A stretch of DNA of 64,000 bases from Paramyrothecium sp. XJ0827 (lineage: Eukaryota; Ascomycota; Sordariomycetes; Hypocreales; Stachybotryaceae). A model generated the notes under the pieces. It ran no database searches and had not been told where the DNA came from. It worked only from the letters and a program-made list of their open reading frames with translations. Below, piece after piece: positions 1,418-57,208 of this stretch. Where the stretch lies: positions 5,777,001 through 5,841,000 of the forward strand of contig JAJFPB010000002.1 of the NCBI GenBank assembly GCA_020881915.1. The letters run 5' to 3'. Both the position numbers and the translations under genes were made by a program. The number at the start of each line of letters is the position of its first letter. Within the stretch, counting starts at the first letter, position 1.

Positions 1418-1773
1418 GGCCGGAGAAATCGGGAAGAGAGAGGGATATGCTGGATGACGAGGGAATCACGAAAGATATTTGTCGGTCCACGTTGTGAGGG
1501 ATAGAGGACGTGTCGCGTCTTACTTATGTGATCAAATAAACTGGCCAATTGCGCGGAAGAAGGCGACAAAGCTCAAGATTCGACTTCGCCAGGTTGTGGT
1601 CGGCCTGGCCCTTATAAGCTGGTTGGACAACTGGAGATTTGCGATGACCGGTTGCGACTCCAAGGCCGACAAGCCGGCACCGCATCATAGGCGCTAAACT
1701 GAAAGAAGTGCGCCGGAGCGACGAGCGAATCATGAGACGCCATGATTCTCCATCGGAGCTCGTACTAGTTGTC

Positions 1774-1815
1774 CTTGTGGGACCGCACCGTGTACGCTAT
1801 GATAGAGTCGCAGGT
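1774..1815. repeat. Dispersed repeat R2, copy 1
   Basis: About 42 bp beginning cttgtgggaccgcaccgtgt and ending gagtcgcaggt is repeated with a few substitutions and a small insertion at 22482-22526. The two copies sit on the two sides of the peptide-cluster region. It is probably a mobile-element remnant, but no terminal structure was found. Confidence 0.6.
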
Positions 1816-2045
1816 CTAAGTCAAGAAGGGGGGGGCTGACATCCCCTAGAAGCTGCCATCCGTAGTCATTTTCAGCTTTACTGCTAAATTTTGAAGCTAT
1901 AGGGTAAGCCAATAACATGAGCTGACAATTGACGGGGGATGGCAGATTCTAGCGAATGTCAGCTTCCCCTCCTCTTGACTTAACAAGGTCGTCAGACATC
2001 CATCTTCGGAGATTCGTCAAGGGATCTGTTAAACCAAACGCCAAG

Positions 2046-2202
2046 TTAGCATAAAGCGGCCCAACGGCCCAAAAGGCAGGCTCAAGCCCCGAGTGTGTTT
2101 AGCACACTCTAAGCAGATGAAACGACCCTCGGAAAGCCGGGTGGGAGGGAGGGAAAAACAAGGATCTCACAGAAGACATACAAGGCATTCATGCGGTTCA
2201 AC
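2046..2202. repeat. Dispersed repeat R1, copy A
   Basis: This starts ttagcataaagcggccca and contains tttagcacactctaagcag, then ccctcggaaagccggg, and ends gcggttcaac. The same ordered blocks recur at 7374-7517 and, more weakly, at 17001-17121. All three copies lie between genes of the putative peptide cluster. It could be a decayed MITE or solo-LTR type element, or a shared regulatory block. Confidence 0.65.
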
Positions 2203-2312
2203 GGGTCTCGTGCGGGGCGTGCAGCATAACACTGAACTGGCTTTTGGACCCCTGCTTGCACTGCACCAATAAGCTAGTTTAGTTGGGGAAGGCCCCCTAA
2301 GCAGTAATGGTC

Positions 2313-2324
2313 GCTATATAAGGT
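2313..2324 (+). promoter_or_regulatory. TATA-like box of O-methyltransferase 1
   Basis: The sequence gctatataaggt lies about 225 bp upstream of the start codon at 2547, followed by a pyrimidine-rich tract (cttccctccctgtctccccc). This is a common core-promoter layout in filamentous fungi. The function is inferred from sequence alone. Confidence 0.4.
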
Positions 2325-2546
2325 ATTCACCAGGCTGGCTTGGACCTGTCTTCCCTCCCTGTCTCCCCCTAACACGGAGATCATTAACAAGAGTGTATTG
2401 GTAACAAGACGACCAAGTCGACCACTCCAAGACTGCAAATAATCCCCTGAAGCCTTGCCGATATTTCATCCACGCCTATTGTAACTCCTTCTGCCCCATA
2501 GCCAAGTCGCTCAATTCGACCCTGCAGGTCGCTCACTGTCAAAGAC

Positions 2547-3984
2547 ATGGGTTCCCACGTCGTCGGAACCGTGGAGGGCTACATCGAGGAGCTGCGCAGA
2601 CTGCAATCGCAGGGGGACCTGGAAAGTGACACGAAGGCCAGGCAAAACGCCCTTGCCGTGGCTCGAAAACTGACTAGAAGCCTGGAACAACCGGAATACA
2701 TTGCAGGGGAGATGATCTTCGCGGTACGGCCCGTTCCAGACTTAGATATCCCTCTCAACTCGAGTCTTGCCTTGCTAACTTGTCTGGCGTCAGCAATTCG
2801 TACCAACGGCTGCACGGATAGCCGTGGAGATGAACATCTTCACACACATGGTCGAGAAACAGGGTCCAATCACGTCACAAGAATTGGCGTCGCTCTGTCC
2901 GGGAGAGGAGCAGCTCATCGGTGCGCAACCCGTCACGTCGATCGCCGGGGTAAGAAATTCAGGAGTAAGCTGACCCCTTTTAGTCCGAATTCTTCGCGTG
3001 CTGTCGTCGTCGGGTATTGTGGACGAAGTTGGCGAAAGGACATGGGAAGCGTCGCCCGTCACGGCAGCTATGGCCACGGAGGGCATTGCAGCAGGCTACA
3101 GAATGGTGTTGGTATCCCTACGACCTTCCATGTTTGACTTGCTCTTCATTCCCATGCTAATGATCTGACAGAGGAGAGATGGTAATGGCTGCCGCACAAA
3201 TGGGCCCCAGGTACCTTAAAGAAGTCGGCTATGTAGCTCCAACCGACCCGAATGACGGCTTCATGCAGTACGCGTTCCAGACGAAACTATCGAGCTTCGA
3301 CCTCATCGCGTCTAAGCCAAGCGTTTTCAAGGACTTCAACACCTTCATGGGCCGCAAGGTTGGCGCAAAGACAAAGTGGCTCGACTGGTACCCCGTCCAA
3401 GAGCGGGTGATCAAGGACGCGAGACAAGACACCCCCTTGCTTGTGGACGTCGGAGGCGGGAACGGCCATGACGTGATTTGGTTCCAGGAGCTCTACCCAG
3501 ATGCTGGACAGCTCATTCTGCAAGACCAGGCGTCCGTCATTGCCAGTCTCCAGAACCTGCCTGCGGGCATTGATAAAATGGCTTATGACTTTTTCACCCC
3601 GCAGCCAGTCAAAGGTGAGTCGAGCAAGGGGAGATTTCATGACTTCTCCTAACATCTGCTATAGGCGCCCGGGTGTACTACTTCCACCACATCTTCCATG
3701 ACTGGTCCGACCACAAGTCGCTTGAGATCCTCGAGCAAGTCGTGGCCGCGATGACGCCGGGCTACTCGAAGCTACTGATTCACGATATTATTGTGCCCGA
3801 GGTCGGCGCTCTGCAGTATCATGCGGCTCTCGACATGACTATGATGTGCTTCAATGGCGGCATGGAGCGCACAGCGAGCCAGTGGCGCAAACTTCTCGGG
3901 AAAGCCGGCTTGGATGTTCTGGAGATCTGGCCTGCGCCGGAGGATGGCGCCGGCGGGATGGTGGAGGCAATGTTGATGAAATGA
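2547..3984 (+). CDS. COMT-type O-methyltransferase 1
   Basis: The spliced model is 2547-2723, 2794-2920, 2984-3107, 3172-3614 and 3665-3984, giving 396 aa in one frame. It is an SAM-dependent O-methyltransferase of the plant-COMT/sterigmatocystin-OMT type (Methyltransf_2). The N-terminal part carries a winged-helix dimerisation region (VPTAARIAVEMNIFTHMVE). The SAM-binding motif LVDVGGGNGHD lies near residue 240, and the catalytic-base region reads FHHIFHDWSD. It is a close paralogue of the gene at 8658-10298: exons 2, 3 and 5 have exactly matching lengths (127, 124 and 320 nt), but this copy lacks one intron. The likely role is methylation of a hydroxyl on the cluster product, for example a tyrosine phenol; that part is inference. 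Confidence 0.9.
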
Positions 3985-5451
3985 AATGGATAAATATAGG
4001 GTGCCAGTTGCCAGACAGCACATATTCATTGTTAAAAAAGAAATTCATGACTCGCAAATTTTTATCACTGCATATGCCTTCATCTATACTCGAGCTTCAC
4101 CGTCACATTCGGGGAAGTAAATGCCGTCAACCCTTGGGCATGCCATGCCCAGATTTTCTTGTGCTCTTCTGTTAATATTGAAAACTTTAGAGGCCGTAGC
4201 CATTTACAGAACTTATCTAAGTTGTACTTTCACCAATTAATCGGTTTCTAGTAAAGGGACCTGAAGCCATTATACGAACGACTTTTGGGATTACTTTACC
4301 AACTCCCCTCTTTGTACGCTATTTTATCAAATTTCCCCTCCAGAAAAAAGGAGAAATCGCTCTATCTGCCGGCCTCTGTCCTCAGAATTATAGTGACAAC
4401 GCCATCGGCCACTAACCAGGTAGGAATAGTAAATAATCTCAGGATCAGCTTCTCCCTCTCATGAAGCTACCCGGTACACATCCGTCACACAGTCACACTA
4501 AATCAGGGAGAGCAGTTCACGCCAGGAACTATCGGTTGTGTTGCACCTGGACGGTAGCATTGCTGCAAGGACGACGGCCGATCCGTCAGGGTTGCTGCGC
4601 TAATAATAAAACAGCGTCCTGCGAAAAGGAGCAAACACTCATCCACATGGAGCTCGAAGGATCGAACGGGCAATTGATTGTTCCTTTCGGCAAGCCTCAG
4701 CCATGGGTAGAATTTGATGGGACATTCCTTCTAGGCCACACTGGTCGAAGATCCACGCAGCCCACCGCTATAATGTGTCGAGCGAAGGCTTTGCCGGGTG
4801 GGTGCAGGAACGCCCGCAGTTTTTAGGAAGTCAGGGAGAGCGTCGCATCCTCTAATAGGTATCTTCACATGTACGCATTTCAAGATCATGCACGAGAACA
4901 GGAATACCAATGCGGCTACTCAGCCCCATGGTGACATCGAAATGAATTCGATGCTTGCTTCCAATCGGTTTAGGCGAGCCGTTGTGGGCATCATTTCTTC
5001 AAAGCGAAGCTTGGCGTTTTTTTCCGGACTTCCATGGACAAGATTTGCGACGACAACTCTGTTGTCTCGCCTACGAGCCGGTAGGCGATACCTCATTTGA
5101 CAGTCAGTCTAAGCCATTGGGGGTGAACAAGAGAGATGCGCAACACCGTAGGACAACTCCAGATGCCAGCGAATCTGAGGCCAACATGAATCTACAGGAG
5201 CATGCATCCACGCTTGTCTTTTGTGAAATGACGGAAATGTACTCTCATGCGTGTCCAGAAGACACAATCCAGACCACGAGCTTGCTTCCTTATGCGTCGC
5301 CAACAGCATGCTCAGTGGTTTCATCTCGCAAGGGGAATCTGTCCAAATGGCAGTCGCATCTCCTTGTGAACGAGATTTGCCCCAATGCATCTTGTACGTC
5401 TACGAGCATAAGACCCGAAATTTGTGTCCCATCTCTGTTTATGATATCTTA
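3985..5451. other. Gene-free region between O-methyltransferase 1 and the MFS gene
   Basis: This 1.5-kb stretch is AT-rich just after the methyltransferase gene. A 206-codon open frame at 4955-5575 (plus) overlaps the end of the transporter gene on the other strand and shows no recognisable motif, so I did not call it. It could hold decayed coding sequence. Confidence 0.5.
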
Positions 5452-7099
5452 TCAAAGCGCCTTGGTCCATTGCCTGCCCACCTTGGCCAATCGAGTCGCC
5501 GTCAAGACAACCGTCGATGCTATCAACAATGCGCCGGAAAACTGGACATTGAATAATCAGTTCCATCGAACATAGAAAGGCAGCATCCAACGTCTGCATT
5601 TGAGGTTGCGGCAGAGAGGGAAACACTTACAGCAACCAGTCCAACCCAATTCTCGGAGTCACCGACAATAGCACCCGCAATTGGATAACTTACCAGAGCG
5701 CCGATACCTACAATAAATAAGGTCATGCCAATTCGTGTGCCAATCTTGCTTTTGTCATCGGACACGTTGGCGATGCTCGCCACTGGGAGCCCCATAAAGG
5801 TACCAGACGCCACGCCAAAGAGGAGCGCAAAGACGACGACGCCCGCCGCCGTTCGTATGGCCAACAGGCAAAAGGTCAGGATAACAGCAGTCAGGGTCAT
5901 GGCCGTCTGCATATTGATCGAGCCTGTCTTATCCGCAAAGTAGCCCAGCACGAGACGCCCCACCAACGACCCGGCATTGAGGATGATGAGGATGTTGTCC
6001 GCGAGCGTGTCTGACACGGTCGTGCGGGCCTCTGCATATAGCTGGATGTAGGTGATGATGGAGTACAGGCCCATGAAGCCGAGGCACAGGCCCAGGTTCA
6101 GCATCATGAATGGCACATCAGCGAGGGACCTCCAATCGACTATCTGGACGGGCGCCTTGGGTGCGGTTTTCGACCTCATCGCTAGAATGGGCAGCGACGT
6201 GACGAGAATGACGAACCCAATGACACGCGTCGTCCAGGCAAAGCCGATGCGAGGCTCCAGCTGCGTGAAGATGGCAGGGTATATGACGCCACCTAAGGGA
6301 CTAGACGTTAGCTGCCGATCTCAAACAGCTACAGGGCCGTCTTGGCGATTAGGCCGGGGCATTGGGGAGGGGGCATCCGGCACCACCAGTAGCCTTGGCC
6401 CAACTGTAAAACACTTACCAAGAGCGCTCCCCATGGACGAGACGCTTATCGCCAAGCCCAGGTTTCGGTCAAAATACTGGGAGACGACGGCCGGCGCCGG
6501 CAAGAATAGACAGCCGACGCCGAGGCCGATGATAACACCCTGGGTGAGCAGGATCTGGTAGAAGCGATGGGCGCTGCCGACGAGGAAGCTGCCGACGAGC
6601 ATGAGGCCCGAGCCGGTGTAGAGCAGGGACTTGCAGAATCCAAGGTCGAACAAGGGGCCGACGAAGATGGAGGCGACGAACAGCAGGCAGCTCTGGGTGG
6701 AGCCGATCCACGCGATGCTGGCGGACGGCTGTGCCTGTAAGAGATCGACCTCGTAGAAGGTCTGGAAGACGCCCCAGGCGTTCATGAGGCCCCTTGACGG
6801 CGCAGGTGTCAGTCAGTCGACAGGGTGGCCTGGCCCGGCTTGCGGGCGTGGAGTTTGGAGGATTTCGGGGCTTGGGGCCGCAGCTTTCTGCTCGGTTCTA
6901 CTCACCAGGTATTGAGGTAGACGCAAAACGCGCCCAAGACCTGGAGCCAAGCACGGAGCCCCTCTCGGGAACCCGGGCCTGGGACGGGCTGCTCTTCTTC
7001 TCCTCCCGGGTATTCAGGAGGCGGTTCGGCCGAGGCGGGCAAGGGCTTCTCCGAAACGGCCTTGTCGTGGGCTGCTGCTGCGTCGCTTGAGTCGGCCAT
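5452..7099 (-). CDS. MFS transporter, monocarboxylate-porter (MCT) type
   Basis: Minus-strand exons are 7099-6906, 6792-6419, 6292-5631 and 5541-5452, giving 439 aa. A hydrophilic acidic N-terminus is followed by RAWLQVLGAFCVYLNTWG, the usual first helix of fungal MCT-like carriers, and about twelve membrane segments. The loop between helices 2 and 3 and the GVGCLFLPAPAVVSQYFDR segment fit the family. The last exon is short; the 89-nt intron before it restores a normal final helix (FSGALLIASTVVLTATRLAK), whereas reading through gives an unrelated tail. It lies between the two O-methyltransferase genes. Export of the cluster product, or uptake of a precursor, is a reasonable guess; the substrate is unknown. 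Confidence 0.88.
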
Positions 7100-7373
7100 G
7101 GCTGCGAAACGGGAGATGCTGGGCTAGCAAGATGCAACGGGAAAAGCATGAGGGTGCAGCAAATCGTTGGACCAAGACAAAGAAAATCATGAGTCCGAAC
7201 GCAAACCGTTGGTTCAAAGAGACGCTGACCAACAATGCCGTATTAGGAAGGCCCCAGCAGCAGAAATTTAGCATTGGGCTCGTGTACGCATTTTACATCT
7301 AATACAGCAGGCCATAGCGGGCCATAGGGCTTAATTCTACAGCGGTCTGTAGTAGCTACGACCGAAGGTTGGA

Positions 7374-7517
7374 TTAGCATAAAGCGGCCCAAAGGCAGAA
7401 ACAAACCGCGGATGTATTTAGTACACTCTAAGCAGATAAAGTGACCCTCGGAAAGCCGGGCGGGGCAGCAAAGCACTGACCTTGCTGGGTTACATACAAG
7501 AAAATATGCGGTTCAAC
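7374..7517. repeat. Dispersed repeat R1, copy B
   Basis: It shares ttagcataaagcggccca, gtacactctaagcagat, gaccctcggaaagccggg and atgcggttcaac in the same order as copy A at 2046-2202. It lies about 275 bp upstream of the MFS transporter start. Confidence 0.65.
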
Positions 7518-7532
7518 AGTATCCGCAGTCAA

Positions 7533-7810
7533 GTCCCTCTTGGCGTCAGGACGGATTGGATTTGATCAATCTGATCAGGGGGTAAATCCTTCGTTCCGGC
7601 CGCTCCCGCTGTACTACACCCATCTAGTACGGCCGGAAAGTCTCCTTTCATTTTTTTCAAAGTTGTTACAGTAGTAAAGTCCCTCGTAGCGACGGGACGG
7701 ATTGGATTCGATCCACCTGATCAGGGCGGAATTCCTTCGTTCCGGCCGCTCCCGCTGCGCCGCCCCGCTGTGCGGCCCCCACCTGCCACGGCCGGAAAGA
7801 TCCCCGGAGC
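7533..7810. repeat. Diverged tandem duplication, two copies, period about 146 bp
   Basis: Copy 1 (7533-7678) and copy 2 (7679-about 7810) share gacggattggatt, tgatcaggg and cttcgttccggccgctcccg in the same order and end in cggccggaaag. Many differences are C in copy 2 against T in copy 1 (for example gattcgat versus gatttgat), and copy 1 is the more AT-rich. This is compatible with mild repeat-induced point mutation followed by drift. Confidence 0.7.
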
Positions 7811-8576
7811 GTTACAATGTCGCGCCACACGAAATTGTCCGCCTTGGCCTTTCACAGGTCCACAATGTCTCAAGGCGTCTGGAAACCATTGTCTCCACGA
7901 TTCAACTCCGTGGGGTCGACATCTTGGAAAATCGTACCCCAAAGACTCAAGCCTCCAAACCCGCCTGCTTGCCAGCCCCTTCTTGACACCTCTCAAACAT
8001 CGGACTTGACCGTTCTCACCTCGCACTATCTGCCGAATGTACCCCTTTTGTGACAGGTCTTGCCTGTACTGGGCTCTTGATCGGCACGGGATTATAATTT
8101 GCTGCAATGCAAACCCAGGTCTCGAATCCTCTTTGCTATCTTCCCCTCCCAACCGATCAGTGTCTATCTATAGTAGGCTGCCATGTTGCGGTGATAGGCT
8201 ATACGGCGTACTTGCAGTTATAATTCCGCCGTAGCGCCGATGAAAATCAGTCCACTTCCCCCCTGCTTGTGCCGCATGCGCGAGCTCCTTCAGCATGGGG
8301 GTCCTCGGACGATCGACGAGCTTGATTCGCGCGGGCCCCACCCGGCTCGCACCGGGGGCGTACGGGGCCTGTCGTTGAAAAGCTCCCATGTCCTCGAATT
8401 CCAAAACGTGCATCTGACATGGGTGACGTTCACCAGTGTACAGGGATGACAAGTACCGCCGGAAGTACCTCGATGGCGTGGGTACATGCACGGCACATGT
8501 CGAGAGAGAGGGAATCCTGTTGGTTCGAAAACCGGCCTGCAGCGTTGCTTCGTCGCAATTGTTGGTTCAAGATAAT

Positions 8577-8632
8577 GTATGTATGTGCATGTGCATGTGC
8601 ATGTGCGTCTGTGGGTGTATATGTGGGTGGTA
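8577..8632. repeat. Microsatellite (tgcatg/tgtatg type)
   Basis: The run atgtatgtatgtgcatgtgc continues as repeated gtgcat hexamers and then gtgggtgtatatgtgggtgg. It lies just beyond the 3' end of O-methyltransferase 2. Confidence 0.8.
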
Positions 8633-8657
8633 CAGCTAGCTGCTAAGGTATCTATTC

Positions 8658-10298
8658 TTACGCCGGGAGAATGGCTTCGACAACGCCGCCAGCACCCTCC
8701 TCGGGAGGCGGCCACACCTTGATAACCTCGAGGCCAACCTCAGCCAGCAGCTCCTTCCATTGGCGGGCCGTCCGCTCCATGCCGGCATTGAAACACATCA
8801 TCGTCATGTCAAGCATGGCAATGTAGGCGGATGCCTGGGTTTCCGGGACAATCATCTCGTGGATGTACAGCTTGGAGTAGCCGGGCTTCATGGCCGCGAC
8901 GACGTTCTTCAGAATCTCGACGCTCTTGTAGTTGGACCAGTCGTGGAGAATGTGGTGGTAGAAGTAGGCGCGTGCACCTGCGCGAGCGGACCGTTAGCAC
9001 GTGGAGCAAAGCGAGACGAGCGCCATGGAAATCGTGGCGTGCGGGTTGCCCAGCTCTTACCTTTAATGGGCTGCTCGGTAAAGAAGTCGTACGGCATCTA
9101 TGCAGAAAAGGCGGGTCAGCAACGTGCGCTTTAGGTGGGCAACTTCTGCAAGGGGAAGAAACCGAGCGATCGTCAAAGGTCCAGAAAAGTGTAGACAAAT
9201 GCAGCGCGGCTCGGTTCCCTTTCCTTGCTAGACGTCGCTCCTTTCTGTTGCGCGCATCACCCGCGCAACTTCTCAACTTACAGCTTCAACGCCCTCGGGC
9301 AGCTCGAACTTGTTCTCGAGCACGCTGGGGAGATCCTGGAGGACAATCTTGCCCGGAGCCGAGAGCTTGTTGTGCAGAGCAATGACGTCGTGGCCACGAC
9401 CGCCGCCAATGTCGACGAGGAGCGTCGCGTCCTCGGCCGTGGAGGCGCCCTCAAGCAGGCCCTCCTGGAAGGGATACCAGTCGACCCAGGTCTGCCTGGC
9501 GCCCATCGAGTTGCCCATGAAGGCGTTGAAGTCCTTGGCGACCTGCGGCATTGAGTGGAACAGCTCGAAGCTGGATAGCTTCGTCTGGAAGGCGTACTGC
9601 ATGAAGCCGTCGTTGGGGTTGGTCGGGCACTTGTACCCGGTCTCCTTGAGGTATTTGCCGGCCTTGATGGCCGCGCCCATGACCATGTCTTCGCTGTAAT
9701 TGTGTTAGTCGTTTCTGGTGCGATTGAACTTGGTCCTCATCATGACTAACATCATGCGGAAGCCGGCCGAGACACCTTCGTGGGCCATGGCGTGGGTGAC
9801 GGGCGTCGCGAGCCATGTCCGCTCGCCAACGTCGCCGACAAGCCCGACACCGGCGAGCGCCCTCAAAAGTCGAGCTATCATGCCGCTGTTAGCCAGAACA
9901 ACCTTCTGTTCACCACCGAGGCATGCAGGGACGCACTGATGAGAAGCTCCTCGCCGCCAGACTTCTCGGCCAGCTCGTCGGACGTTATCGGACCGCCATG
10001 CTCGACCATGAGCTCAAACAGGTGCAGGTCGACCGATATCCGCGCGGCGATGGGGATGAACGGCTATCGCCCGTGTTAGCGCAACGCGAATACGTTTGGG
10101 TTCCTGCATGTTTTGAGTGCGCACCGAGAAGATGAGCTCGGCGGCGACATCCTCGGGACGCTGCAGGCTGCCGGTGAGCTGCCTGGCCTTTTGCAGCGCC
10201 GCGGCCCGAACGGTCTCGTCGGTGCCGTTGGCGAGGCGCTCCTTGAGGGCATCGAGCTCTCCGATGAGCGCGACTGCGCCGGCCTGATCAGCTGCCAT
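8658..10298 (-). CDS. COMT-type O-methyltransferase 2
   Basis: Minus-strand exons are 10298-10125, 10063-9937, 9874-9751, 9693-9282, 9097-9061 and 8977-8658, giving 397 aa. All five introns are GT-AG and the phases close. It has the same architecture as O-methyltransferase 1: a winged-helix N-domain (IPIAARISVDLHLFELMVE), the SAM motif LLVDIGGGRGHD and the catalytic region YHHILHDWSN. Exons 2, 3 and 6 match the paralogue's lengths; the extra intron at 9098-9281 splits a block that is fused in the paralogue. The two probably arose by duplication and now act on different sites or substrates. The gene is transcribed convergently towards the MFS/OMT1 side of the locus. Confidence 0.9.
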
Positions 10299-11898
10299 GT
10301 TTGCTACAGGTTAATTGTTCTGGTCGGATGTTTCCGTGCTGAAAGTAAAGTAAATAAGACAACGACTAATGTATGGCGCAATGTCAAGGCAGGCAGGCAG
10401 TGAGTGTTGCGCTGCAGGCTTGCTTCGGGCTGGTTATGTACGATGTCTGCGGGATGCAGTCGCGCTGCGGGGTTCAGGTCAATCCATGGCCAGCATCCCA
10501 TTCATCCCACGCGAACCAGGCGGATCAATGGGGTGAATAGGGCATGTGGCCCCCTTGCATGTGGCTTCGTTAGTTTCAGCCCGCGGAGGAATCAACAGGG
10601 GCCGCATGGACATGGAGGGCTGGCAGGCCTTGCCTACGAGTGTGGTGGTGTCGTGCGCCTCCCTCATTGAGGGTGAAGATGAATTTCGACCGGTGTTGGG
10701 TGTGTCTACAGAGTCATGTTGCGCCGATTTGATACGTTGGAAGGCTGGCGTTTCTTGACCAGTACTCTGTAAGAGGGCGTCATGGCGACAACATTGGTAT
10801 GTAAGCATGATACATCATCATAGATGGGCCGAACGGGGAAGGCAATGTGAAGCAACTGCAGGGTGCAAAGCAGGGCCATTGTTGGTTGACTGCTAACCGG
10901 CTACGCACAGACAGGTCAACCCTACTCATGGCGAAATAAACAACGCAGAAGCGTGGCTTACAGAGGCACTGAAGCCATGCTGTGGTAATATTGAATTCGA
11001 CGCCTTAGGGACCTGCGATGAATGGTAAGGACTCTCTCAACCTCGAATAGGCTATCCAATAGGCTACAGAGTCGAGTGTGTCGTGTGTCCGGGGGTTCGA
11101 AGCCAAGAAAAACTTGGTGCTTGGCCTCGATTTGGCTGTCAAGCGAGCGTGGCGTGCCTCTCCCGGTTCCCCCGGATGCAACCTCGCAGGTTGCATTTTG
11201 GTTATCGCAAAAAGGGGGACCAACCAGACTCCCAAATCATTCAATTCCCCTGCCACCCTCTTCCAACGTACGGTGCATGTACCCCTAGGAAAGGAGTACT
11301 TACAGGCTACCTACGGCAGCTCGAATCACTTTGGTTGCACAGACCAGGGTGGGAGAGCAGAAGCCTGCATGACAGGCCGTTATTCCCGTGCCAGGGGACT
11401 TTTGTCTCTGTGCGCAACTCCAGATGCAAATCCTGATGCAACAGGAACAACAGGAGCAAGGTGCAGGCATGGATGGGGAGCGGACATGGACGGGGAGCGG
11501 AATTGGACTGGACTGCAAGGTCTGGCTGCAAGGTCTGACTGCAAGGTCTGACTGCAAGGTGGGATTTTGCCTCCCCCTTCCTCTGGACAGGCCAAGCGCA
11601 AGCATACGATTCCTGAAGCTTCACAACGCGGTTCGATGCAACATACGGATGACAAAGGGCAGTTTCTCGCATCGAGTCGCGTTGTGAAAAGAGAGGCTTA
11701 GTTCCACCTAGATCAACTCGTCGTCGTCGACATGCTCTGCACCGCGTCGTAAAAAGTAGTCGAACCTCGATCACAAAGAGTGTCCAAACAGTCCTTTCCG
11801 GCACAAAAGTCCTCCCTCTGTTCGGCGCAAATCACTTGTCCATTCCCTTCACCATTGTTCCTTTCAACAGTCGTCTCTAACCGCACAAGTCCTTCGCA
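10299..11898. other. Intergenic region with a minisatellite
   Basis: This 1.6-kb stretch separates the divergent O-methyltransferase 2 and SAT4-type genes. A short minisatellite lies at 11472-11560. Open frames are short, overlapping and motif-free. Confidence 0.55.
11472..11560. repeat. Minisatellite, 13-bp unit plus a related 5' block
   Basis: The unit ctgcaaggtctga occurs about 3.6 times (from 11512), preceded by a twofold gatggggagcgga-like block. It lies about 340 bp upstream of the SAT4-type gene. Confidence 0.8.
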
Positions 11899-13358
11899 AT
11901 GGCAAACGACGGGCCCGATCTCGGCCCCGCCGTCATCAGCATATCCGTCATCCTGAGCGTCATGTCGACGGTCATCATTGCCATGCGGGTGTGGGTTCGC
12001 CTCACGATCCGCAAGAACCAGCGGCTCACCGCCGACGAGGGCCTGATTCTCGTGACCTATGTTAGCAACCACCCGCTGCTATAGCTGAGCCCCCTGACGG
12101 GTAGCCGACTAACAAAAATCAACTACAGGCCCTGGGCATCGTCAACTCCGTCATGGTCATCATTTCGGCATACTATGGCCTCGGAAAGCACATGGCGGAC
12201 CTGGCGGACCGCCCGCAGGACATTGCCAACGCCATCAAGTGGGTGTACCTGAGCGAGGGCCCTGCCATCATGGCCGCCGGCTTCGCGCGCATCTCGTTTG
12301 CCATTCTCCTCCTCACCATCACCCCGCCCACCAAGAGCGGCCGCCGCTTCCTGTGGGCCATCATGGTCATCCAGCTTGTCTTTGACCTCGCCGCCGTCAT
12401 CGTTACCTACGCCCAGTGTTCGCCCGTCGAGAAGTACTGGAACCAGCCCAACCCGCTCGTCGAGGGCACGTGCTGGGATGCGACTATTCAGCAGTACACT
12501 GGCTACGTCCAAGGCTGTGAGTAAAGTCACGTCGACTATCAGGAATACCGTGTGCTGATCCATCGCAGCCGTCTGTTCCTTGGTCGACCTCATCATGGCC
12601 CTATACCCCATCTCTCTCTTCTGGAACCTGCACATGAAGCTGAAGCAAAAAATCTACCTCAGCGGCATCATGGGACTGGGTGCAATGTGAGTTAACCTTG
12701 GGAGTCGACGATACCCGTTCTTTAGCTGACGCAACCCCGTCAACAGTGCTTGCGTTACCTCTACAGGCAAGACAATCAACCTGCGCGCATTCACTGCGGC
12801 TGGCGACTTTACCTGTACGTCTTGCACGACTTACCTCGTTCGAATTGTCAGCGGATGCACTAACTTTTCCTAGATGCCCTGGCTCAAGTTGCCATCTGGT
12901 GGACGTAAGCTGTTCTCCTTCCAGATACCACCAAGCATTCCATTCTTGCAAATGTACCTGGCTAACCACTCTGCAGAACCGAGGTCAACGCCGTCCTCAT
13001 TGCCGTCTCGATGCCCGCCCTCTCGCCGATCATCAGGTCCAAGAAGCCGGGCTCCACCGCACGGAGCGGATCCTCGGGAGGCGGCGCCGTCCTCAACACG
13101 TTCCACTCGTGGAAGAAGCACAACGTGCGAGCCACAAACGACACGGAAGGCTCTTTTGAGCGCCTCGACGAGCAGGAGCTCGAACATATCAACAAACCCG
13201 CCGAGCTTAACCATATCAACAACCCCGTCGAGCTTGACCATACGGCCAGGACGTACGACTACAGCATCAGTCCGCAGTACGCGCGAGACAACACGGCACG
13301 GGAGGAGGGCATCCGAAGGGACTTTGTCGTGTCCGTAACGAGCGAGCGGCGTCACTAG
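11899..13358 (+). CDS. SAT4/rhodopsin-like seven-helix membrane protein
   Basis: Exons are 11899-12060, 12129-12516, 12569-12686, 12747-12814, 12874-12904 and 12977-13358, giving 382 aa. The protein has the layout of the fungal integral-membrane 'SAT4/rhodopsin domain' family related to Pth11 proteins. The first helix (ISISVILSVMSTVIIAMRVW) is followed by TADEGLILV and then by helices containing FARISFAILLL and FLWAIMVIQLVFDLAAVIV. The cysteine-containing CSPVEKYWN loop and the block INLRAFTAAGDFTYA then IWWTTEVNAV are hallmarks. The tail is hydrophilic with two HINxP repeats. Such proteins recur in secondary-metabolite loci, but their biochemical role is not settled. A 31-nt micro-exon is required to keep the conserved YALAQVAIWWT block. 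Confidence 0.88.
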
Positions 13359-13949
13359 GCTGGATTCTTTCTCGAGGTATCCGTGGACTGTACTATACTG
13401 CATTGCGTTGCGGGACATTTGTGACATTAGTTGTCTAGACGAAAAGACTTTCTGATCAGGTACAAAGCCAAAAGGCTGTTTTACGTGTAAACTAGATCTG
13501 TACAGTGAATCTGTGGTTCTAACCCCGACATCTGGTTCCTGGCCACCGTGCTTTCCATGATATAGTCAAAATCAGTTCTGAACTGGCACAAGATGTAGGC
13601 CGGGTTCGTTGAGCCAAATTGTTACAAGCGTGGCGTCCGCTCGTGACAAGTCACATCAATAATACCTGCGGCCATGATAACATCTGTCAAATCTGCATGG
13701 GATTCAATGCAGGCATGGAACGCACGGAGAGAAAGTGGCGCGAGTTACTCGACAAGGCCGGGGTGGAAGCGATCAAGGTCTGGCTGCTGGTCGAAGCAGA
13801 CGCGGATGGCACTGTGGAGGCGATGCCCAGACCGGCTGATTTACGAAGAGAGTGGGAATTTCACTTGAACAATAATCTCGTTGACTCGTAATGGTACATT
13901 TGATTGTTCCAAACAGATCTACGCTGCAGCAAGAAAGAACTGCGTGGCT
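13359..13949. other. Intergenic region holding an O-methyltransferase relic
   Basis: Only the relic at 13688-13828 is recognisable. The rest lies between two convergently transcribed genes. Confidence 0.6.
13688..13828 (+). pseudogene. Relic of a third O-methyltransferase (C-terminal fragment)
   Basis: The translated fragment reads GFNAGMERTERKWRELL, then DKAGVEAIKVW and GTVEAM. This aligns with the C-terminal 45 residues of both O-methyltransferases in the window (FNAGMERTARQWKELL and EVIKVW in copy 2). The SAM motif and catalytic His region are absent upstream, so it cannot be a functional enzyme. It shows that an extra paralogue once lay next to the UstYa genes. Confidence 0.8.
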
Positions 13950-15045
13950 TTAATCAAGGAGAATATCATCCCCGTGGTAGATACCGTCCGGGCTGGGCCG
14001 CTGCAGCTTGTCCACCTCAAACAGGTCGAACATGCGCTCGCCGGCCCACGCATCCAGCGACTCCCAGTTGGCGCACCTGTGCATGTCTACGTCAAAGTTG
14101 GTCGGCCAGTAGCCCGCCTTGTCGTCGTGCTGCGCCGTGTTGTTGATCCAGCGGAACGTGACCATGGAGAGGTCGGGCTGGCACATGAGGCTCTCACGGA
14201 TGTACTCGATGCAGTGGTCTAGACTGTCAGCTAGGAACCTAGAAAAAAAACGGGACAGTAATGGCGGGGTTTGCTCAACGTACCAACGTGCCTTTTCTCC
14301 CGCGCCATGGCGTCGCCCGCCTTGTCGGCGTGGTAGTGCTCCTTGAAGACCATGCGCTTGACTTTTTTCTGTGCTCATGGCGTTAGCTCCGGTAAACTCG
14401 GATACACGGCGGGTACTGTACCAGGCAGTGTAGAGAGTGGTAGACGCTGAGAGACGCGATGCCGTCTTGGCCGTCTTTTGTGTATACCGAGTGAAGGCCC
14501 TTTTCGTCGAGATAGTCCTTTGGCACGCGAATGTTGTCGTCTTATAAGAAGCCTCCGTTAGTAACAAATCCTGAGTGATTCTCGAAATCCAAGATAGACT
14601 CGCTTTGGAGAAGTGCATGCCAGGCCTGTTCCATCTCCTCTCGAGGATCCCCCGTGAATGGGTTGTCCACAATGTTGGTTGGGAACTTGCGCTCCTCCCA
14701 GACGAGGCCTTGCCGGTCGGGTACTGCATTGTCACGGAGGATCAGTCTAACATTCGGATCATGAACATATGGACACGTACGCGGTAGCTTGGGCTTTGTG
14801 GTCGAGTCTTGGATGGAGCTTGGGGGAAAAGTCGTGGCAAGAAGAACCGCGTAGGCGGCAGTGTACAGCGCAATCAAGACAAAGTGGAATACCAAAGCCC
14901 GTTGCCTCTTGAAAGACCACCAGGGAAGCTGCTCTTCGCGAGGCAGTCGGTCGCCGTCCTCGGACAAGAGTGGTTCATTGGAGTGCCCCGACGACTCGAC
15001 ATCGTCGTCGACGTCTCGCGCAGGCTTCTTCTCCAGGTCGTACAT
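13950..15045 (-). CDS. UstYa-family (DUF3328) oxidase A
   Basis: Minus-strand exons are 15045-14781, 14723-14604, 14540-14422, 14368-14284 and 14218-13950, giving 285 aa. The protein has an acidic cytosolic N-terminus, one membrane anchor at about residues 50-72, and a lumenal domain with two HxxHC motifs (HSLHC near 163 and HVDHC near 195). These are the signature of UstYa/UstYb-type oxidases that cross-link Kex2-released peptides. The block NIRVPKD before motif 1 is also typical. The intron 14541-14603 would use a GC-AG border (gcgagt donor) with a perfect ttactaac branch site; reading through meets a stop, so splicing is needed. The gene shares a 531-bp divergent promoter with UstYa-family gene B. 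Confidence 0.88.
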
Positions 15046-15576
15046 TGTGCGTGACGAAACAAATCAAGGAATATACCGAGGTTGACTTGAGATATCGCAC
15101 AAGTTCAGGCTCGAGTCTTCACCAGAAAACCATTATCAGCTTCACTGACTGGGTAATCAACATCACGGAGTGGAGAACCCTGAGTGCGACTGGGCAAAAA
15201 GCCTGATGGGCTCAGTGCAGTGCGAGTGACGGAGTCGATGCATGCATGCACACGCTTTGCCATTGCCACCAACACACCATGAGATCCTAGCCAGTCCTCT
15301 GCCCTCTCGGGCTGCAGCACGTCAGGCAGGTCGGGAAACGATAACACGTCCGAAAGCAGAGCGAATGGATCAACATCATGCATAGGTGGCAAGGTCCTCC
15401 ACCCCGATGCTACGATGCGACTTACATGGGTGGGCAGACCCCCTGACAGTCTAGGCAACAAGCAAAGTCCGATCGAAACTGGTAGTCTTGATAAATCGAG
15501 GCGAGACTCTAAGAGCCAGCCGCGCTGCAAGAGCACTCCTCAACGGAGTATTCATCACAAATCGTTGTTTCTCGTC
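15046..15576. promoter_or_regulatory. Divergent promoter between two UstYa-family genes
   Basis: The two UstYa-family genes are transcribed away from each other from this 531-bp gap, so they are probably co-regulated. No motif could be assigned with confidence. Confidence 0.5.
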
Positions 15577-16595
15577 ATGAATTTCTTCCGGGAATCCGCG
15601 GGCTACCGGGCCATTCCGGGCGACAAAGAGCGGCAAGATGCCACGACCGCCAGACCCAGCATGCGTCTCCTTCGCGGGGGTCTACTCGGCCTCGCTGGGC
15701 TCTCCGTGTTTGTCCTCGGCGTGCTGGTGGGCGCCGGCACCGGCTCGACGTCGCGATCTGGGCCCATATGTGCGGCCCAGACGCTGCAGCAGCCGAGCTC
15801 GCCCGCCGTGGGCGCACCACCCATCGACCTGACCTTTACCGTCGTCGAGAAGCCGTTCAAGTACAACCGCACCTTTGGCGAGGACCCGTTCCACAATCAG
15901 GCCACCGTGGACGCCTGGGAGGACATTGTCCCTCGTACGTTTTTCTTCTCTCTACTCGTTGCAGTTGCAACGACGCCCCTCTCGGGCTTCATGTAACCTT
16001 CGGCTAATGCGATAGCCGCTGTCAGTGGGACAGGGTTCCGTCCAATGGCCCGATAAGAGCCACAAGGTGTACACCTTGTCAGTTGTTCACCAGCTTCACT
16101 GCTTGGTAAGACCCCCTGCCTTCACCTACCAGGGCGGCGCAGTCGACAACGTGACTGCAACTCTGCATTTTTCTTATCGGATTTATTTGGTTTTCGGCCC
16201 CCATTTTGTCTTGCCTTCCGTCTTTGTTCTTCCTGCTCTTATTTTGGCGAACCGGCGCTGACGTTGCGGTGCAGTGGTCGATCCACCAGAGCTACTACAC
16301 TGAATCACACGATGACGAGGACGGACAGAACGAGCACGACCACCAGCGCAGGCGAGGCGAGGGCGGCTTCGCGCACATGCGGCACTGCTTCGACTACCTG
16401 CGTCAAGCCCTCATGTGCGCTGGCGATGTCACGCTGGAGCCCGTGGATTCCAAGCTCGGCGGGGTCACGGGCTGGGATAACCTCCGCGTTTGCCGGGATT
16501 ACGACCAGATCAAGGAGTGGGCCGAGACTCACAGGGTGAGCGATCTGCGGGGCTTCCTCGAGACACCGGACGGTCAGGGACATCACCATGGCTAG
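15577..16595 (+). CDS. UstYa-family (DUF3328) oxidase B
   Basis: Exons are 15577-15934, 16026-16105 and 16275-16595, giving 252 aa. It has a short cytosolic head, a Gly/Leu/Val-rich anchor at about residues 31-54, and then a lumenal domain. The motif HQLHC (141-145) closes exon 2 and HMRHC (180-184) lies in exon 3, followed by FDYLRQALMCAGDVTLEP, which matches the conserved segment after the second motif in the family. The C-terminus ends in a His-rich HHHG. The acceptor at 16025 is chosen because the nearer upstream AG puts the HxxHC block out of frame. The role is inferred from the family: oxidative macrocyclisation or hydroxylation of the repeat peptide in the secretory pathway. Confidence 0.88.
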
Positions 16596-17000
16596 GAAGA
16601 GTTAAATGTAGCGCTGTAATTCATACTGCAACTTGGACTTGGCATTGTCTCTGGAACCCTTCTGGGCGCCCTCCATGGGATGGAGTTTAAATCCGCCACT
16701 CCACCACCCCGCAGTTGGGACTTTGTATGTTTCGAGTCGATACGGTAATTAATCGCCCTAGCTTCCGCGCGGGGCGGGCCGTTTAATGGTGCTTCCTCCC
16801 GCTCTTCCGCGGGCACCAGTGGCGCTTCCTGTAGCCCTATACTCGGCGCCGAGGCGGAATGGCACTTAGCCTAGAGCCGTCGTGGGTAGCAATTGCGACA
16901 CAAGTTTCGCAGGGGTGCTGGCATTTTACGCGGAGTAGCTATCACAACAGAGGTGAAATGCCTAGAAGGGGAGCCCACTTTCGGTAGGCTTCTCAAAGAA

Positions 17001-17121
17001 TGATACAAGCCTCGAATGTATTTAGCACACGTGAGCTACACAAAAGACACCCCGAAAGGCAAGGCGGGGCTAAGAATCAAGGATCTTACACTCCTACAGA
17101 GTACAATTCCCGTGGTTCAAC
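17001..17121. repeat. Dispersed repeat R1, copy C (diverged)
   Basis: It shares cgaatgtatttagcacac, caaggatcttacac and gtggttcaacag with copies A and B in the same order, with more substitutions and gaps. Confidence 0.5.
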
Positions 17122-17258
17122 AGCAGTTGTAGCACGGACCAGGCCAGGGGCTTGAGTACCCGGCGGAACTTGCAGGACGGGACGCAAAAGACAATGCCAC
17201 AGGCAGGGAGAGAGACGAAGGAACTGGCTCATCACTGGCGGTCCACACACGTAGGCAC

Positions 17259-17310
17259 GCTGCATGATGCTGTACAACGCTGCATGATCCTGTACAACGC
17301 TGTATGATCA
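17259..17310. repeat. Minisatellite, 20-bp unit, about 2.6 copies
   Basis: The unit gctgcatgatgctgtacaac occurs at 17259 and 17279 (one substitution), with a partial third copy from 17299. Confidence 0.85.
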
Positions 17311-18692
17311 AGTTGAATCACAGTGCAGAAACTTCGGGAACTCGACCGGGAACTGATGTGACGGGCTTGCATTCGCTAAACCGAAGTCCCAATCCCCCTC
17401 CTGTTTAGCAGAACACATTCCCCGCGCACCCTTGTCACTGTTCTGAGGGCTGGTGGGAGCTTGCTCTCGGTTCGTCCGTCCCACTCGCCAGGAGCGCCAG
17501 TACGCGGCTCTTGACCAGGATTCCTTAACTTCATCGCAGCTGGTTGGTTGCCAGGCGGTAGAGGCGTACGGCACTGGGAACTAGCGGAGGAACTAGGAAG
17601 GTAGTATCCTTGTGCTGATCTATACGGATCTGGGGGTGGGTTACCTCCTAGGATTCCTCGAAGCATGGGGTCCTCGTCCAACGACCTTTTGTCATTGCAA
17701 TAGCCTTTTTCCCAGAGACGTAATGGAATTTCTTGAAGAGAGATAGAATAGTAGATATTTTTACTTGAGCTATGGTGTAGTGGGATATCGTCGTATATAG
17801 ATTCTATTCATGTTTGATCAATATCATGGAAGAATGCATTCAGAAACCAATATTTGGCGGTCCTAGCTGTTCTCCCGATGTTCCTCACCCTGTACTGCCG
17901 AATAGGTTGCATCATGACCATCACCTTAAGGCAGGTCGGACTTTTCCGCTTTGAGAGAGTTGACCACCCGGACAGGGCATCTGGACTGCGCAAGAATTCA
18001 ACATGATGGACCAGTCAGATCAACGAGGGCCAAAGTTTGGAGTGCCACTTGTGTACAGCCCCCCGCATACCTTACATCCATCTGTCTGGCGCGCAGGAAC
18101 ATACAGCGGTCCTAAAAAGGGACAACGAAGCCATCAATAACAGTTGAGTGCCAACCTACTTGGCCACTCATTGTCGTTGGGCAATGAGACAACATTTTCA
18201 CTCACGTAGCGATGGGGCCCAGCATTCGTGCTAGGTCCAATGATCGCGCCGATCTCGCAATTGTATATGCAATGACACGCTGACCGTTGGCCACTCTGGC
18301 TTGCAAGGTGGTAACTACGACGTTGTGACATGGGTGTCTTGCAGCGTCGTAGATACTACCTGAGTAAAGATGGTCGAACCAACAGAGACGGGCTTCCCGT
18401 CTTGGAAGGGCCCCGTGGGGAAGGCAGGAAAGAAAAACCAATTGGAATAGCAGCCATACTCAATAGGCTTTCTCGTACTTGACTTGGCAGGACAAGGAGC
18501 ACATCAGATACTGGGTTCGGCAGGACCACGTACTCGTAGGTCCCGCCTCGTGTCTCCTCTGTCTCGATCCATATCAGGTGGGAGCATTCCTAGACTTTCG
18601 AAATACTTGCTCTATTTCATCTCCTTGTCAAACCGCTCGTCAAAGTTCAACATTGTTGCTTTGAAGCATCGAAAACTCGCCCGAATATCAAA

Positions 18693-19400
18693 ATGAAGTT
18701 CAGCGTCGTCATCGCCCAGCTCGTCACGGCCACCGCCGTGGCCGGTGCTGCTATCCCCAAAGCCATCCGCGCCGGTAAGCGGTGACCTTTTTCCCACTTG
18801 GTCCACGTCGACACTTGCCTGACTGCTAGCCCTACCGTGATAGACTCTGACGAGGCCGTTGTCTACCCTGCCCAGGTCGACCAGTCGTGGGTTGATGCCA
18901 CGAAGCGCGCCGGTGAATTTTGCCTCCCAAACATCGTGAAATGTGGCGAGTATAGCTAATGCCGGACATAGATTCTGACGAGGCCGTTGTCTACCCCGCC
19001 AGTGTCGACCAGACCTGGGTCGACGCCACCAAGCGTGCCGGTAAGTCCAATGCCTTTTGCACTTGCTTTCTCAACCTGATGGGAACTGCTGTAGACTCCG
19101 ACGAGGCCGTCGTCTACCCTGCTAGTGTCGACCAGACCTGGGTCGACGCCACCAAGCGTACCGGTAAGTCTAATACCTCTATGCTTGCTTTCTCAACCTG
19201 ACGAGAACTGCTGTAGATTCTGATGAGGCTGTTGTCTATCCTGCCCAGGTTGACCAAACTTGGGTCGACGCCACCAAGCGTTCCGGTAAGTCTAATATCT
19301 CTACTATTGCCTTCTTAAGCTAACGGGAACTGCTGCAGACTCGGATGAGGCTGTTGTCTATCCTGCCCAGGTTGACCAGTCCTGGGTCGATGCCCAGTAA
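18693..19400 (+). CDS. Kex2-processed repeat-peptide precursor (candidate dikaritin-like RiPP precursor)
   Basis: Exons are 18693-18774, 18844-18912, 18972-19040, 19095-19163, 19217-19285 and 19339-19400, giving 139 aa. Exon 1 encodes a signal peptide (MKFSVVIAQLVTATAVAGA) and a few residues. Exons 2-6 each encode one 23-residue repeat. The first half is DSDEAVVYPA plus Q or S; the second half is VDQ, then S or T, then WVDATKR and a variable A/T/S. The KR ending repeats 1-4 is a Kex2 site; the fifth repeat ends WVDAQ and a stop. All introns are phase 1 and the four internal repeat exons are all 69 nt. The candidate core is the Tyr-to-Trp segment, whose only variation is Q/S and S/T. Three UstYa-family genes nearby support a cyclised product, but the chemistry is inferred. 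A non-cyclised secreted Kex2 peptide is the alternative. Confidence 0.87.
18844..19400 (+). repeat. Tandem exon-intron repeat array (5 exons, period 122-128 bp)
   Basis: Exon starts are spaced 128, 123, 122 and 122 bp apart. The last three introns (54, 53 and 53 nt) are also alike: each starts gtaagtc and contains ttctcaacctga or a variant, and each ends gaactgctg(t/c)ag. The duplicated unit is therefore exon plus intron, not coding sequence alone. The first two introns are diverged. Confidence 0.9.
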
Positions 19401-19925
19401 ATCGGCTGCAGATCAAATATAGTTAAACACGCTCTTTAAATAGCATTCATTTGAGTAGAAGATGAATATATTCCATTAACTCAAGTCTCGTAGAGCAACC
19501 AGCGGGCTAGTTTTTAAATATATAGCATTTATGAAAATGAAATCCGCCCGGAGAGAGGAACAGACCAAAGGTTTAAACTTAAGCAAATGTGAGCTTTGCG
19601 CAAAAATCGAGCTGCGAGGTGTATTGTAGGCAATGATATGGGCGTCAATGAATTCTGCTCAATAGTTCAGGCACAATCCTTTGGAGTGACAAGCATGTGA
19701 AGAAACGCCGTATGATGTGGTGTCTGCCAGCTCGCCTGACGACACCCCGGTCTGGATAGCATTGCAACGTAATTGCACAGGGATGCCCACCAACTCGTCT
19801 GTCCCGTCCACTCGTGTACTCCATACATCAAATTTCCTCCTTCACCCCCACCCCTCCCTCTGGCTCCCCGAGCACTCTGCTTCACAACTTCTTCGCATCT
19901 GCAGTCTGCCCTTTTGCGAGACATC
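19401..19925. other. Intergenic region between precursor and UstYa-family gene C
   Basis: This 525-bp gap joins two genes on the same strand. It is AT-rich after the precursor stop and ends in a C/T-rich tract just upstream of 19926. No gene seen. Confidence 0.6.
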
Positions 19926-20900
19926 ATGAGTCCGCTATCGTCTTCAGAAAAGTACGAACCGCTCCGGCGGGCATCTACCGAGGGATTCAAGGACAACAGC
20001 AGCGAAGAGTCGTCGCTTCCGTCGGCTCCATGGCCCCAGCGACGGGGCGGGGCGATGGGCTTTTCACTCTTATCCTGGGTCGTCTTGACTGTCGTGCTGG
20101 TGCTGTCCTTGGTGGCTAATCTGGTGCTGGTGCTGCGATTGCAGCCGTCGTCGTCGCCTGAGCCCAAGTGCGGCTCGCATTTTGGTGAGAAGCATTCCAG
20201 GGGACCCTCTACAGCACAAGGCGAGGGCATCATGCTTACAGTGGTGTAGCGGGACTTGAGCGCACCGTTCCGATACAGTTTCATCATTCGACCGAGTACA
20301 CCAACGACAACCTGACGGCCGCTACCGAGCTGTGGGAGAAGCTCAGCGGCGACCCGGGCGTTGTCGCCCTGGAGAAGCACTTCATCGACGAGACCGGCCT
20401 GCCAAGGGCTTTGCCTTTCCCTTGGGACAACAACAAGGAGGTCTACTTACTTCAAGCCTTCCACAACTTGCACTGCCTGGTACGTTGCGACTCTGATCCT
20501 CTACCACTGTCGGAAGCCTCGAATGAAAGGCTTCAACCAGGACACATCGCGCTAACCTCTACTCTCCCAGCGCACTCTGTTCCGCTACGCCAGGTACACG
20601 GAGCTCGGCGAGCCAAATCACATCGCCTTCAGCCACGCGCTGCACTGCCTGGACCAGCTGCGGCAGGACGTTGTCTGCAACGCCGACGACACGCCGCGCT
20701 ACGCGGGCTTCCAGGACCCGCCCGGCACGGGCGCCGGCCAGACGCGCATGTGCCGGGACTGGTCCAAGCTGGAGAAATGGGCACTGGACAGGACGGCCTG
20801 CTTCAAGCACCACGACGAGGTGCCCGGCCCCATGGTGGATCGGTTCAAATCTTGTCCAGACGGGCGTGTGCTATGGCCCACGGAGAAGAGCGGCGAGTAG
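19926..20900 (+). CDS. UstYa-family (DUF3328) oxidase C
   Basis: Exons are 19926-20184, 20250-20479 and 20571-20900, giving 272 aa. A Ser/Arg-rich cytosolic head is followed by a long hydrophobic anchor at about residues 45-71. The lumenal domain has HNLHC (158-162) at the end of exon 2 and HALHC (185-189) followed by LDQLRQDVVCNADDTPRY, the classic second-motif context of UstYa proteins. Splice positions just after HxxHC-Leu are the same as in the other two UstYa-family genes, which supports common descent. It lies directly downstream of the repeat-peptide precursor on the same strand, the arrangement expected for an oxidase acting on that precursor. Confidence 0.9.
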
Positions 20901-52622: not shown

Positions 52623-54907
<2,285 letters not shown>

Positions 54908-55001
54908 TAATATAATGTCTATTTTAATTCACGAAACCCCTGAAGATTTGCAAGGCTCTTTTATGTCCTCCTTTGTTTCTATTTTTTTTTTCTTGCGAGG
55001 C

Positions 55002-56682: not shown

Positions 56683-57208
56683 CTTGAGCAAGCCAGCCTT
56701 GGTCTCTTGCAATAATATCGTATATGCCTGACACCTCAATGCAAGCAGACAAATGGAAAGATTTCTGAAGGCCAAGGAGCCACCCAAGAGCAATGCCATC
56801 TGGCGTCTTTTGTCTTATACCCGTCGGCAGCTGAGATTCATAGCTGGCATCTGGTGGAATTACGACCAACCAGCCAAGACAGAACACGGACCAATCACTA
56901 CCGACGCCCTCCACCAACAACGGTCGCATGGTGGGCCACGAGACACCGCTAATGATCGCGTGTTCTCTAGCGTGCATAAACGACCCTTGATCTAGAAGCC
57001 TCCACCACGACGTGGGCCGCTTGATTCCGACGGTTACCGTCGTAAGTGTGTTGGTTAGGCCTACTAGCAACCCTTTAAGAACCCTTTAAGAAGGCCTGAT
57101 TTCGGCCTCTGCCGACTCGTTCGAACTGAATTGATCAATCTTGTAATTGTCCCTCTCATCTCGTTGCTCAAGTGTCTCATCGGAAAATCTGGCCTGGGTG
57201 ACATCATC
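56683..57208. promoter_or_regulatory. Divergent promoter between dehydrogenase and aminotransferase genes
   Basis: A 526-bp gap between head-to-head genes of one pathway, so shared control is likely. It contains CGG-type triplets (for example gattccgacggttaccgtcg near 57025, a near-palindrome accgtcgg-like site) of the kind bound by Zn2Cys6 regulators. The assignment is speculative. Confidence 0.4.

Follow-up and report, generated by a model that had tools for sequence, protein, structure and literature searches.

A 64,000-nucleotide stretch of the genome of Paramyrothecium sp. XJ0827 (51.8 Mb in 15 contigs) carries, at positions 2547-20900, a candidate gene cluster for a dikaritin-type ribosomally synthesized and post-translationally modified peptide (RiPP). 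The whole stretch (contig JAJFPB010000002.1, here C8, positions 5,777,001 to 5,841,000) is referred to as the window. In this cluster, a leadered precursor of five peptide units lies beside genes of the UstYa and O-methyltransferase (OMT) families, whose products would oxidize and O-methylate the freed peptide, a reading to which we assign a probability of about 0.8. That the locus is a real and conserved RiPP cluster is very likely; its product is likely a modified peptide and, as far as sequence can indicate, probably a cyclic and O-methylated one. Splicing, processing, chemistry, cross-link and methyl site are given throughout as predictions.

Conserved company of the precursor gene

The original prediction had proposed searching fungal genomes with the repeat, and such a search, run over 5.8 billion proteins at E ≤ 1, did return 24 precursor homologs; 18 of these are named and represent 18 fungi, with E values of 3e-3 to 0.4 for the weakest three. 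The three UstYa-family oxidases of the window were searched as one alignment (E ≤ 1e-10; 106 matches, 51 closest to UstYa1 and 55 to UstYa2); none of the 106 was closest to UstYa3, whose words this joint alignment may not have drawn. The search with OMT1 and OMT2 together (E ≤ 1e-60) gave 236 matches, and the analysis covers the 120 best of these, referred to below as listed. Genes were taken to share a contig when they came from the same organism and from contigs of identical size, with the expectation calculated from contig size over 45 Mb; no contig size was common to two species names.

Calculated in this way, a UstYa gene lies on the contig of the precursor in 13 of the 14 precursor species with a UstYa match (0.71 expected), and the orders represented are Hypocreales, Xylariales in the wide sense and Eurotiales. 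Of the 23 UstYa1 species for which an OMT is listed, 16 have it on the contig of UstYa1 (0.96 expected), and a listed OMT lies on the precursor's contig for at least 10 of the 18 named precursors. All four kinds of gene occur together on 4 contigs, three on 12 and two on 15, so that at least 31 contigs combine two or more of them. Locus tags place several of these genes side by side. In Cordyceps fumosorosea, ISF_09178, 09179 and 09180 are the precursor, UstYa2 and UstYa1, and in Beauveria gryllotalpidicola MY11210_003173, 3174 and 3175 are an OMT, UstYa2 and the precursor. UstYa2, UstYa1 and OMT bear consecutive tags in Hirsutella (HIM_01340/41/42), Anthostomella (120100/110/120) and Monosporascus (DL764_008805/6/7), and direct neighbour pairs or triples also occur in Madurella, Arthroderma, Lecanicillium and Aspergillus karnatakaensis. 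On the basis of these shared contigs and neighbouring tags, the conserved set is composed of the precursor, UstYa1, UstYa2 and an OMT. The OMT family is thus a real cluster partner, and the dikaritin-like RiPP locus originally proposed gains support from fungi other than the one in which it was seen. Dermatophytes (Trichophyton, Arthroderma), for which UstYa and OMT relatives were found, have no precursor among the 24 homologs. Linked precursor, two oxidases and methyltransferase make a small gene set for probing paired UstYa function.

The 18-residue unit D-x-DEAVVYPA-x-V-DQSW-V-D is nearly invariant in the precursor family, with a single free column between YPA and VD. Searching by the Tyr side gave 62 units from 25 precursors, of which 58 retain the Trp and 59 the Asp three positions ahead of it; searching by the Trp side gave 57 units, and these agree without exception in the upstream D, D, A, Y, P and A. 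Such near-invariance from Beauveria to Xylaria to Aspergillus, together with the linked genes, speaks for a single, broadly retained peptide and not for a rapidly evolving toxin. The linkers between units carry a dibasic pair in 23 of 37 cases; the 14 linkers without one belong to Xylariales in the wide sense (11), Aspergillus (2) and Beauveria gryllotalpidicola (1). All four linkers of the window precursor end in KR. Release by Kex2, as first proposed, is therefore plausible in this species and cannot be general: elsewhere in the family, judging from the linkers, other cuts must serve or the gene models must be wrong.

Predicted exon-per-unit layout of the precursor gene

Gene models are the predictions of a purpose-written finder using codon usage and splice sites, and domains were assigned with Pfam (Table 1). 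The 139-residue precursor model agrees with the five-repeat secretory precursor with Kex2 sites described in the original prediction. The repeat elements noted there (VVYPA, VDQ, WVDATKR) are present as well, within a conserved unit that is longer, at 18 residues, and that occupies a separate predicted exon each time. In the splice model, the five units read DSDEAVVYPA(Q/S)VDQ(S/T)WVDA, with TKR after four of them; stops interrupt the unspliced stretch. Tandem Repeats Finder independently detects an array at 18969-19394 (period 122, score 550) that covers most of the units. The four complete unit exons measure 69 bp each; exon 6, which includes the stop, measures 62 bp. Each of the five introns is in phase 1, introns 2-5 falling one residue past TKR and intron 1 directly after the leader, so that whole units can be gained or lost in frame. 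The layout thereby offers a simple genetic route to altering peptide copy number. Introns 3-5 are 75-85% similar to one another, as against 39-51% for introns 1 and 2 compared with the others, suggesting that exon and intron were probably duplicated together as a module.

Among the 20 codon columns of the units, 12 show only synonymous variation, three change the residue and five are invariant. Pairwise comparison of units (9 of 10 pairs estimable) gives non-synonymous divergence (dN) of 0-0.09 and synonymous divergence (dS) of 0.56-2.2. This synonymous codon variation, with dS far above dN, shows that strong purifying selection acts on the peptide unit, which is not just a young DNA repeat.

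As a control, 14 other stretches bearing PF11807 and one neighbouring stretch (L010-L024), plus the locus upstream of the window (L009), were scanned for repeated peptides. Repeat precursors occur in seven of these loci (L010, L012 on the minus strand, L013, L016, L018, L020 and, small and on the minus strand, L014), and in every case a single open frame runs through the repeats shown, uninterrupted by introns. An exon for each unit is therefore not usual for UstYa-linked precursors of this genome. The layout is nevertheless common to more than one species, as indicated by the putative inter-unit intron of a xylarialean relative, Biscogniauxia mediterranea: its annotated protein (P0022) leaves unit 1 into an intron-like stretch, beyond which the next unit is read in a different frame. 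Translated in frame +2, the tail, which was chosen by eye, agrees with the unit at all 18 scored positions, against a maximum of 12 in 300 shuffles. Several other annotated relatives, also by eye, contain extra leader residues at the position of intron 1.

The control precursors have repeats of their own. At L010 (C5:583001-593000, ~8100-8700, plus strand), eight units around DADAAEKYKLY, most followed by KR, form a single open frame, as do the ten (E/D)STNNQAGWG(K/R)R units at L013 (C8:553001-563000, ~9300-9850, plus). L012 (C9:4990001-5000000, within 1700-3400, minus) holds many AVAYGRHTDDVP units with KR sites in an open frame of at least 325 residues, and L016 (C15:2620001-2629000, ~5690-5880, plus) has ADAREKPSIWLR units without dibasic sites. 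The remaining units are LEARHHQGAKTN at L018 (C9:4740001-4750000, ~2770-2110, minus), GDPILDIN at L020 (C1:469001-479000, ~6950-7450, plus) and ADGFKRDEEV at L014 (C10:5530001-5540000, ~4890-5000, minus), the last adjoining the UstYa gene second closest to UstYa3.

Oxidases, methyltransferases and flanking genes

Pfam and the motifs agree with the gene content given in the original prediction, namely three UstYa genes with two HxxHC motifs and an anchor each, two OMTs, a major facilitator superfamily (MFS) transporter and a SAT4-type protein, the latter carrying the fungal rhodopsin domain. To the two OMTs, both full length, must be added a third, present as a C-terminal remnant. The UstYa genes match PF11807 above the cut-off (E 3.8e-38, 1.5e-29 and 6.3e-22), and their sequences contain the pairs HSLHC/HVDHC, HQLHC/HMRHC and HNLHC/HALHC and a single hydrophobic stretch near each N-terminus. 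Two HxxHC motifs are found in 96 of the 106 UstYa matches, one in 5 and none in 5. UstYa1 groups in the tree with hypocrealean proteins (support 93/81 and 95/90), and UstYa2 does likewise (96/96). UstYa2 is 82% identical to a protein of Paramyrothecium foliicola that lies, judged by equal contig size, on the same contig as the relative of OMT1. UstYa3 is divergent, its nearest kin within the genome being 40% (C12) and 37% (C10) identical. For the homolog closest to UstYa1 (P0026, 79% identical), AlphaFold gives a model with a mean predicted local distance difference test score of 78 (61-66 for the other four models), one N-terminal helix (43-73) and both HxxHC motifs on confidently predicted helices; fold comparison of the AlphaFold models gave no outstanding fold relative.

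Table 1. Predicted features of the candidate cluster (positions in the window)
Feature	Position	Strand	Description
OMT1, O-methyltransferase	2547..3984	+	5 exons, 396 aa; PF00891+PF08100; xylarialean-type clade
MFS transporter	5452..7099	-	4 exons, 439 aa; PF07690; membership by position only
OMT2, O-methyltransferase	8658..10298	-	6 exons, 397 aa; PF00891+PF08100
Fungal rhodopsin-domain (SAT4-type) membrane protein	11899..13358	+	6 exons, 382 aa; PF20684; membership by position only
Third OMT, C-terminal remnant	about 13640-13831	+	tblastn
UstYa1, UstYa-family oxidase	13950..15045	-	4 exons, 309 aa; conserved cluster core
UstYa2, UstYa-family oxidase	15577..16595	+	3 exons, 252 aa; conserved cluster core
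Precursor gene	18693..19400	+	6 predicted exons, 139 aa; one unit per exon in exons 2-6
Exon 1, signal-peptide-like leader	18693..18774	+	hydrophobic N-terminus, judged from sequence
Exon 2, unit 1	18844..18912	+	DSDEAVVYPAQVDQSWVDATKR; gene model
Exon 3, unit 2	18972..19040	+	DSDEAVVYPASVDQTWVDATKR; gene model
Exon 4, unit 3	19095..19163	+	DSDEAVVYPASVDQTWVDATKR; gene model
Exon 5, unit 4	19217..19285	+	DSDEAVVYPAQVDQTWVDATKR; gene model
Exon 6, unit 5 and stop	19339..19400	+	DSDEAVVYPAQVDQSWVDAQ; gene model
UstYa3, UstYa-family oxidase	19926..20900	+	3 exons, 272 aa; 525 bp downstream of the precursor

OMT1 and OMT2 share 57% identity and belong to two clades that are otherwise xylarialean except for their closest kin (P. 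foliicola, whose protein is 95% identical to OMT1, and one metagenome protein). The remnant corresponds to roughly the final 43-62 residues of an OMT (best tblastn E 4.8e-17). Its best queries are hypocrealean, by a modest margin (75 bits for Akanthomyces, then 74 and 70; Madurella and others rank next, and Hypoxylon, the best xylarialean query, reaches 66). It is located between the rhodopsin gene and UstYa1, which is the position of the OMT beside UstYa1 in Hirsutella, Anthostomella, Monosporascus and Madurella. Most simply, these sequences would mean that an older OMT decayed and that its role was taken over by OMT1 and OMT2, which may have come by transfer or may be old paralogs.

Upstream of OMT1 lie a gene with an alanine-racemase N-terminal domain (D-serine dehydratase-like) at the window border (-44 to 1417, minus strand) and, by eye, a P450-like gene (L009 3932-5728, minus). 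On the other side, window 27929-32992 (minus) holds a 1470-residue open frame with a NACHT-like P-loop that, by eye, looks like a fungal NOD-like receptor, with a hydrolase-like frame next upstream. Frames resembling, by eye, GMC oxidoreductase, aldehyde dehydrogenase, aminotransferase and P450 genes at window 53300-62885 possibly form another metabolic cluster.

Proposed pathway, alternatives and relation to known systems

The leader is predicted to direct the precursor into the secretory pathway, where Kex2 would cleave after each TKR, as the dibasic sites suggest. The acidic D-x-DEA stretch likely serves as a recognition or trimming spacer, analogous to the 'ED' of ustiloxin. By analogy with known oxidases of the family, UstYa1 and UstYa2 likely oxidize the invariant Tyr, perhaps linking it to Trp or to a beta-carbon, and UstYa3 may contribute a lineage-specific oxidation. 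OMT1 and OMT2, again by analogy, likely methylate a hydroxyl of the product.

Several observations weigh against this reading. The splice model of the precursor, like all gene models here, is predicted, and under a stricter intron penalty the gene finder reads intron 3 through in frame. Same-contig calls rest on contig size and organism. Beauveria bassiana is an exception to the linkage, its precursor and UstYa contigs differing in size; in B. gryllotalpidicola the UstYa1 relative (tag 003196) stands 21 tags from the precursor; four of the 18 named precursor species have no listed UstYa match; and, among the best 120 of 236, only 23 of the 119 named OMTs have a further gene of the cluster on their contig. 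While the RiPP cluster, with OMT as a real partner, stands as originally interpreted, UstYa3, the MFS transporter and the rhodopsin gene are members by position only, without conserved company in the data seen. An S41 family peptidase accompanies phomopsin-like clusters, and PF03572 has no match genome-wide in an exon-by-exon search, which a split gene could escape. Tyrosinase (PF00264) has 47 matches in the genome and none inside window C8:5777001-5841000 in an exon-wise search. The chemistry of ustiloxin and phomopsin is therefore not directly transferable.

Alternatively, two adjacent clusters could be present, the precursor with UstYa1-3 (13950-20900) on the right and an unrelated OMT/MFS pathway on the left. 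The xylarialean type of OMT1 and OMT2, set against the hypocrealean grouping of UstYa1 and UstYa2, would fit such a division, as would the 3.6-kb gap with its rhodopsin gene between OMT2 and UstYa1. However, members of the OMT1 and OMT2 clades share contigs with UstYa genes of the family in Xylariales (Nemania serpens, Xylariaceae FL1651; Xylariaceae FL1019, Xylaria bambusicola, Nemania NC0429), and we consider the division unlikely. A cluster that is inactive or decaying, its ancestral product lost, is very improbable: the OMT remnant beside UstYa1 is what decay would leave, but two intact OMTs of the same family remain, the UstYa genes are intact with all motifs, and the precursor units show dS far above dN. 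Finally, the precursor might yield a secreted, linear, pheromone-like signalling peptide, with the adjoining UstYa and OMT genes serving another metabolite. Its repeat and KR layout with an acidic '..EA' spacer is like that of alpha-factor-type precursors. A developmental role is possible for the peptide, as argued for POI2 (PMC7329392). Yet the pheromone type among the Kex2-processed repeat proteins (KEPs) is almost always without DUF3328 neighbours (PMC7329392), and here the precursor and relatives of UstYa1 and UstYa2 are on shared contigs in 13 of 14 testable species from three orders, which renders a pheromone improbable.

Extending the dikaritin-type reading, the family may tentatively be viewed, though we doubt it on balance, as a distinct and ancient ascomycete RiPP class. 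Its symmetric phase-1 exons, each with a unit and cut site, would let units be added, lost or skipped in frame. Two dedicated UstYa proteins would form a Tyr-Trp cross-link and a dedicated OMT would methylate the product, whose job would be conserved in insect pathogens, endophytes and moulds.

By 2022, five dikaritins and at least 838 KEP types had been counted in print, and 22% of KEP genes lie near a UstYa gene (PMC10512285). A search of the running text of published papers did not find the unit sequence. Motif 3 of a survey of 250 secretomes, DADAATXYV[A/V]D, likewise has D-x-D-x-A before Tyr (PMC6339444), whereas the window unit has YPA and DQSW; motif 3 is closer to the L010 precursor DADAAEKYKLYVD. 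In KEP type G-6 (#13) of Umemura 2020, the repeat likewise contains Tyr and several Asp, and 46 of the 49 members have DUF3328 genes no more than 15 genes away (PMC7329392). Beauveria, Cordyceps, Hypoxylon, Chaetomium, Aspergillus and Penicillium are common to G-6 and the precursor matches, and Monosporascus and Talaromyces to G-6 and the UstYa matches (PMC7329392). Going by genus and composition, the precursor family may be G-6. In that case the family, originally taken as undescribed, is already catalogued, its product, OMT company and exon layout not being described in the text of PMC7329392 covered.

With the dikaritins ustiloxin, phomopsin and asperipin-2a, the locus shares a secretory repeat precursor, KR sites and adjoining DUF3328/UstYa genes, and the acidic stretch is comparable to the 'ED' beside the ustiloxin core (PMC6514808, PMC10512285). 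In those pathways, UstYa-family proteins help form ether links and also desaturate residues (PMC6514808, PMC10512285). At the sequence level, the dikaritin features found here are the tandem-repeat secretory precursor, the KR linkers and nearby UstYa genes with two HxxHC motifs. Unlike the ustiloxin/phomopsin subgroup, the locus has VVYPAxVDQ(S/T)W instead of a YxIx core and no tyrosinase match in the window. As the original prediction held, the unit shares no core with known dikaritins (YAIG, YVIP, FYYTGY), from which the locus is further set apart by a near-invariant 18-residue unit with Tyr and Trp, an exon for each unit and a linked OMT family.

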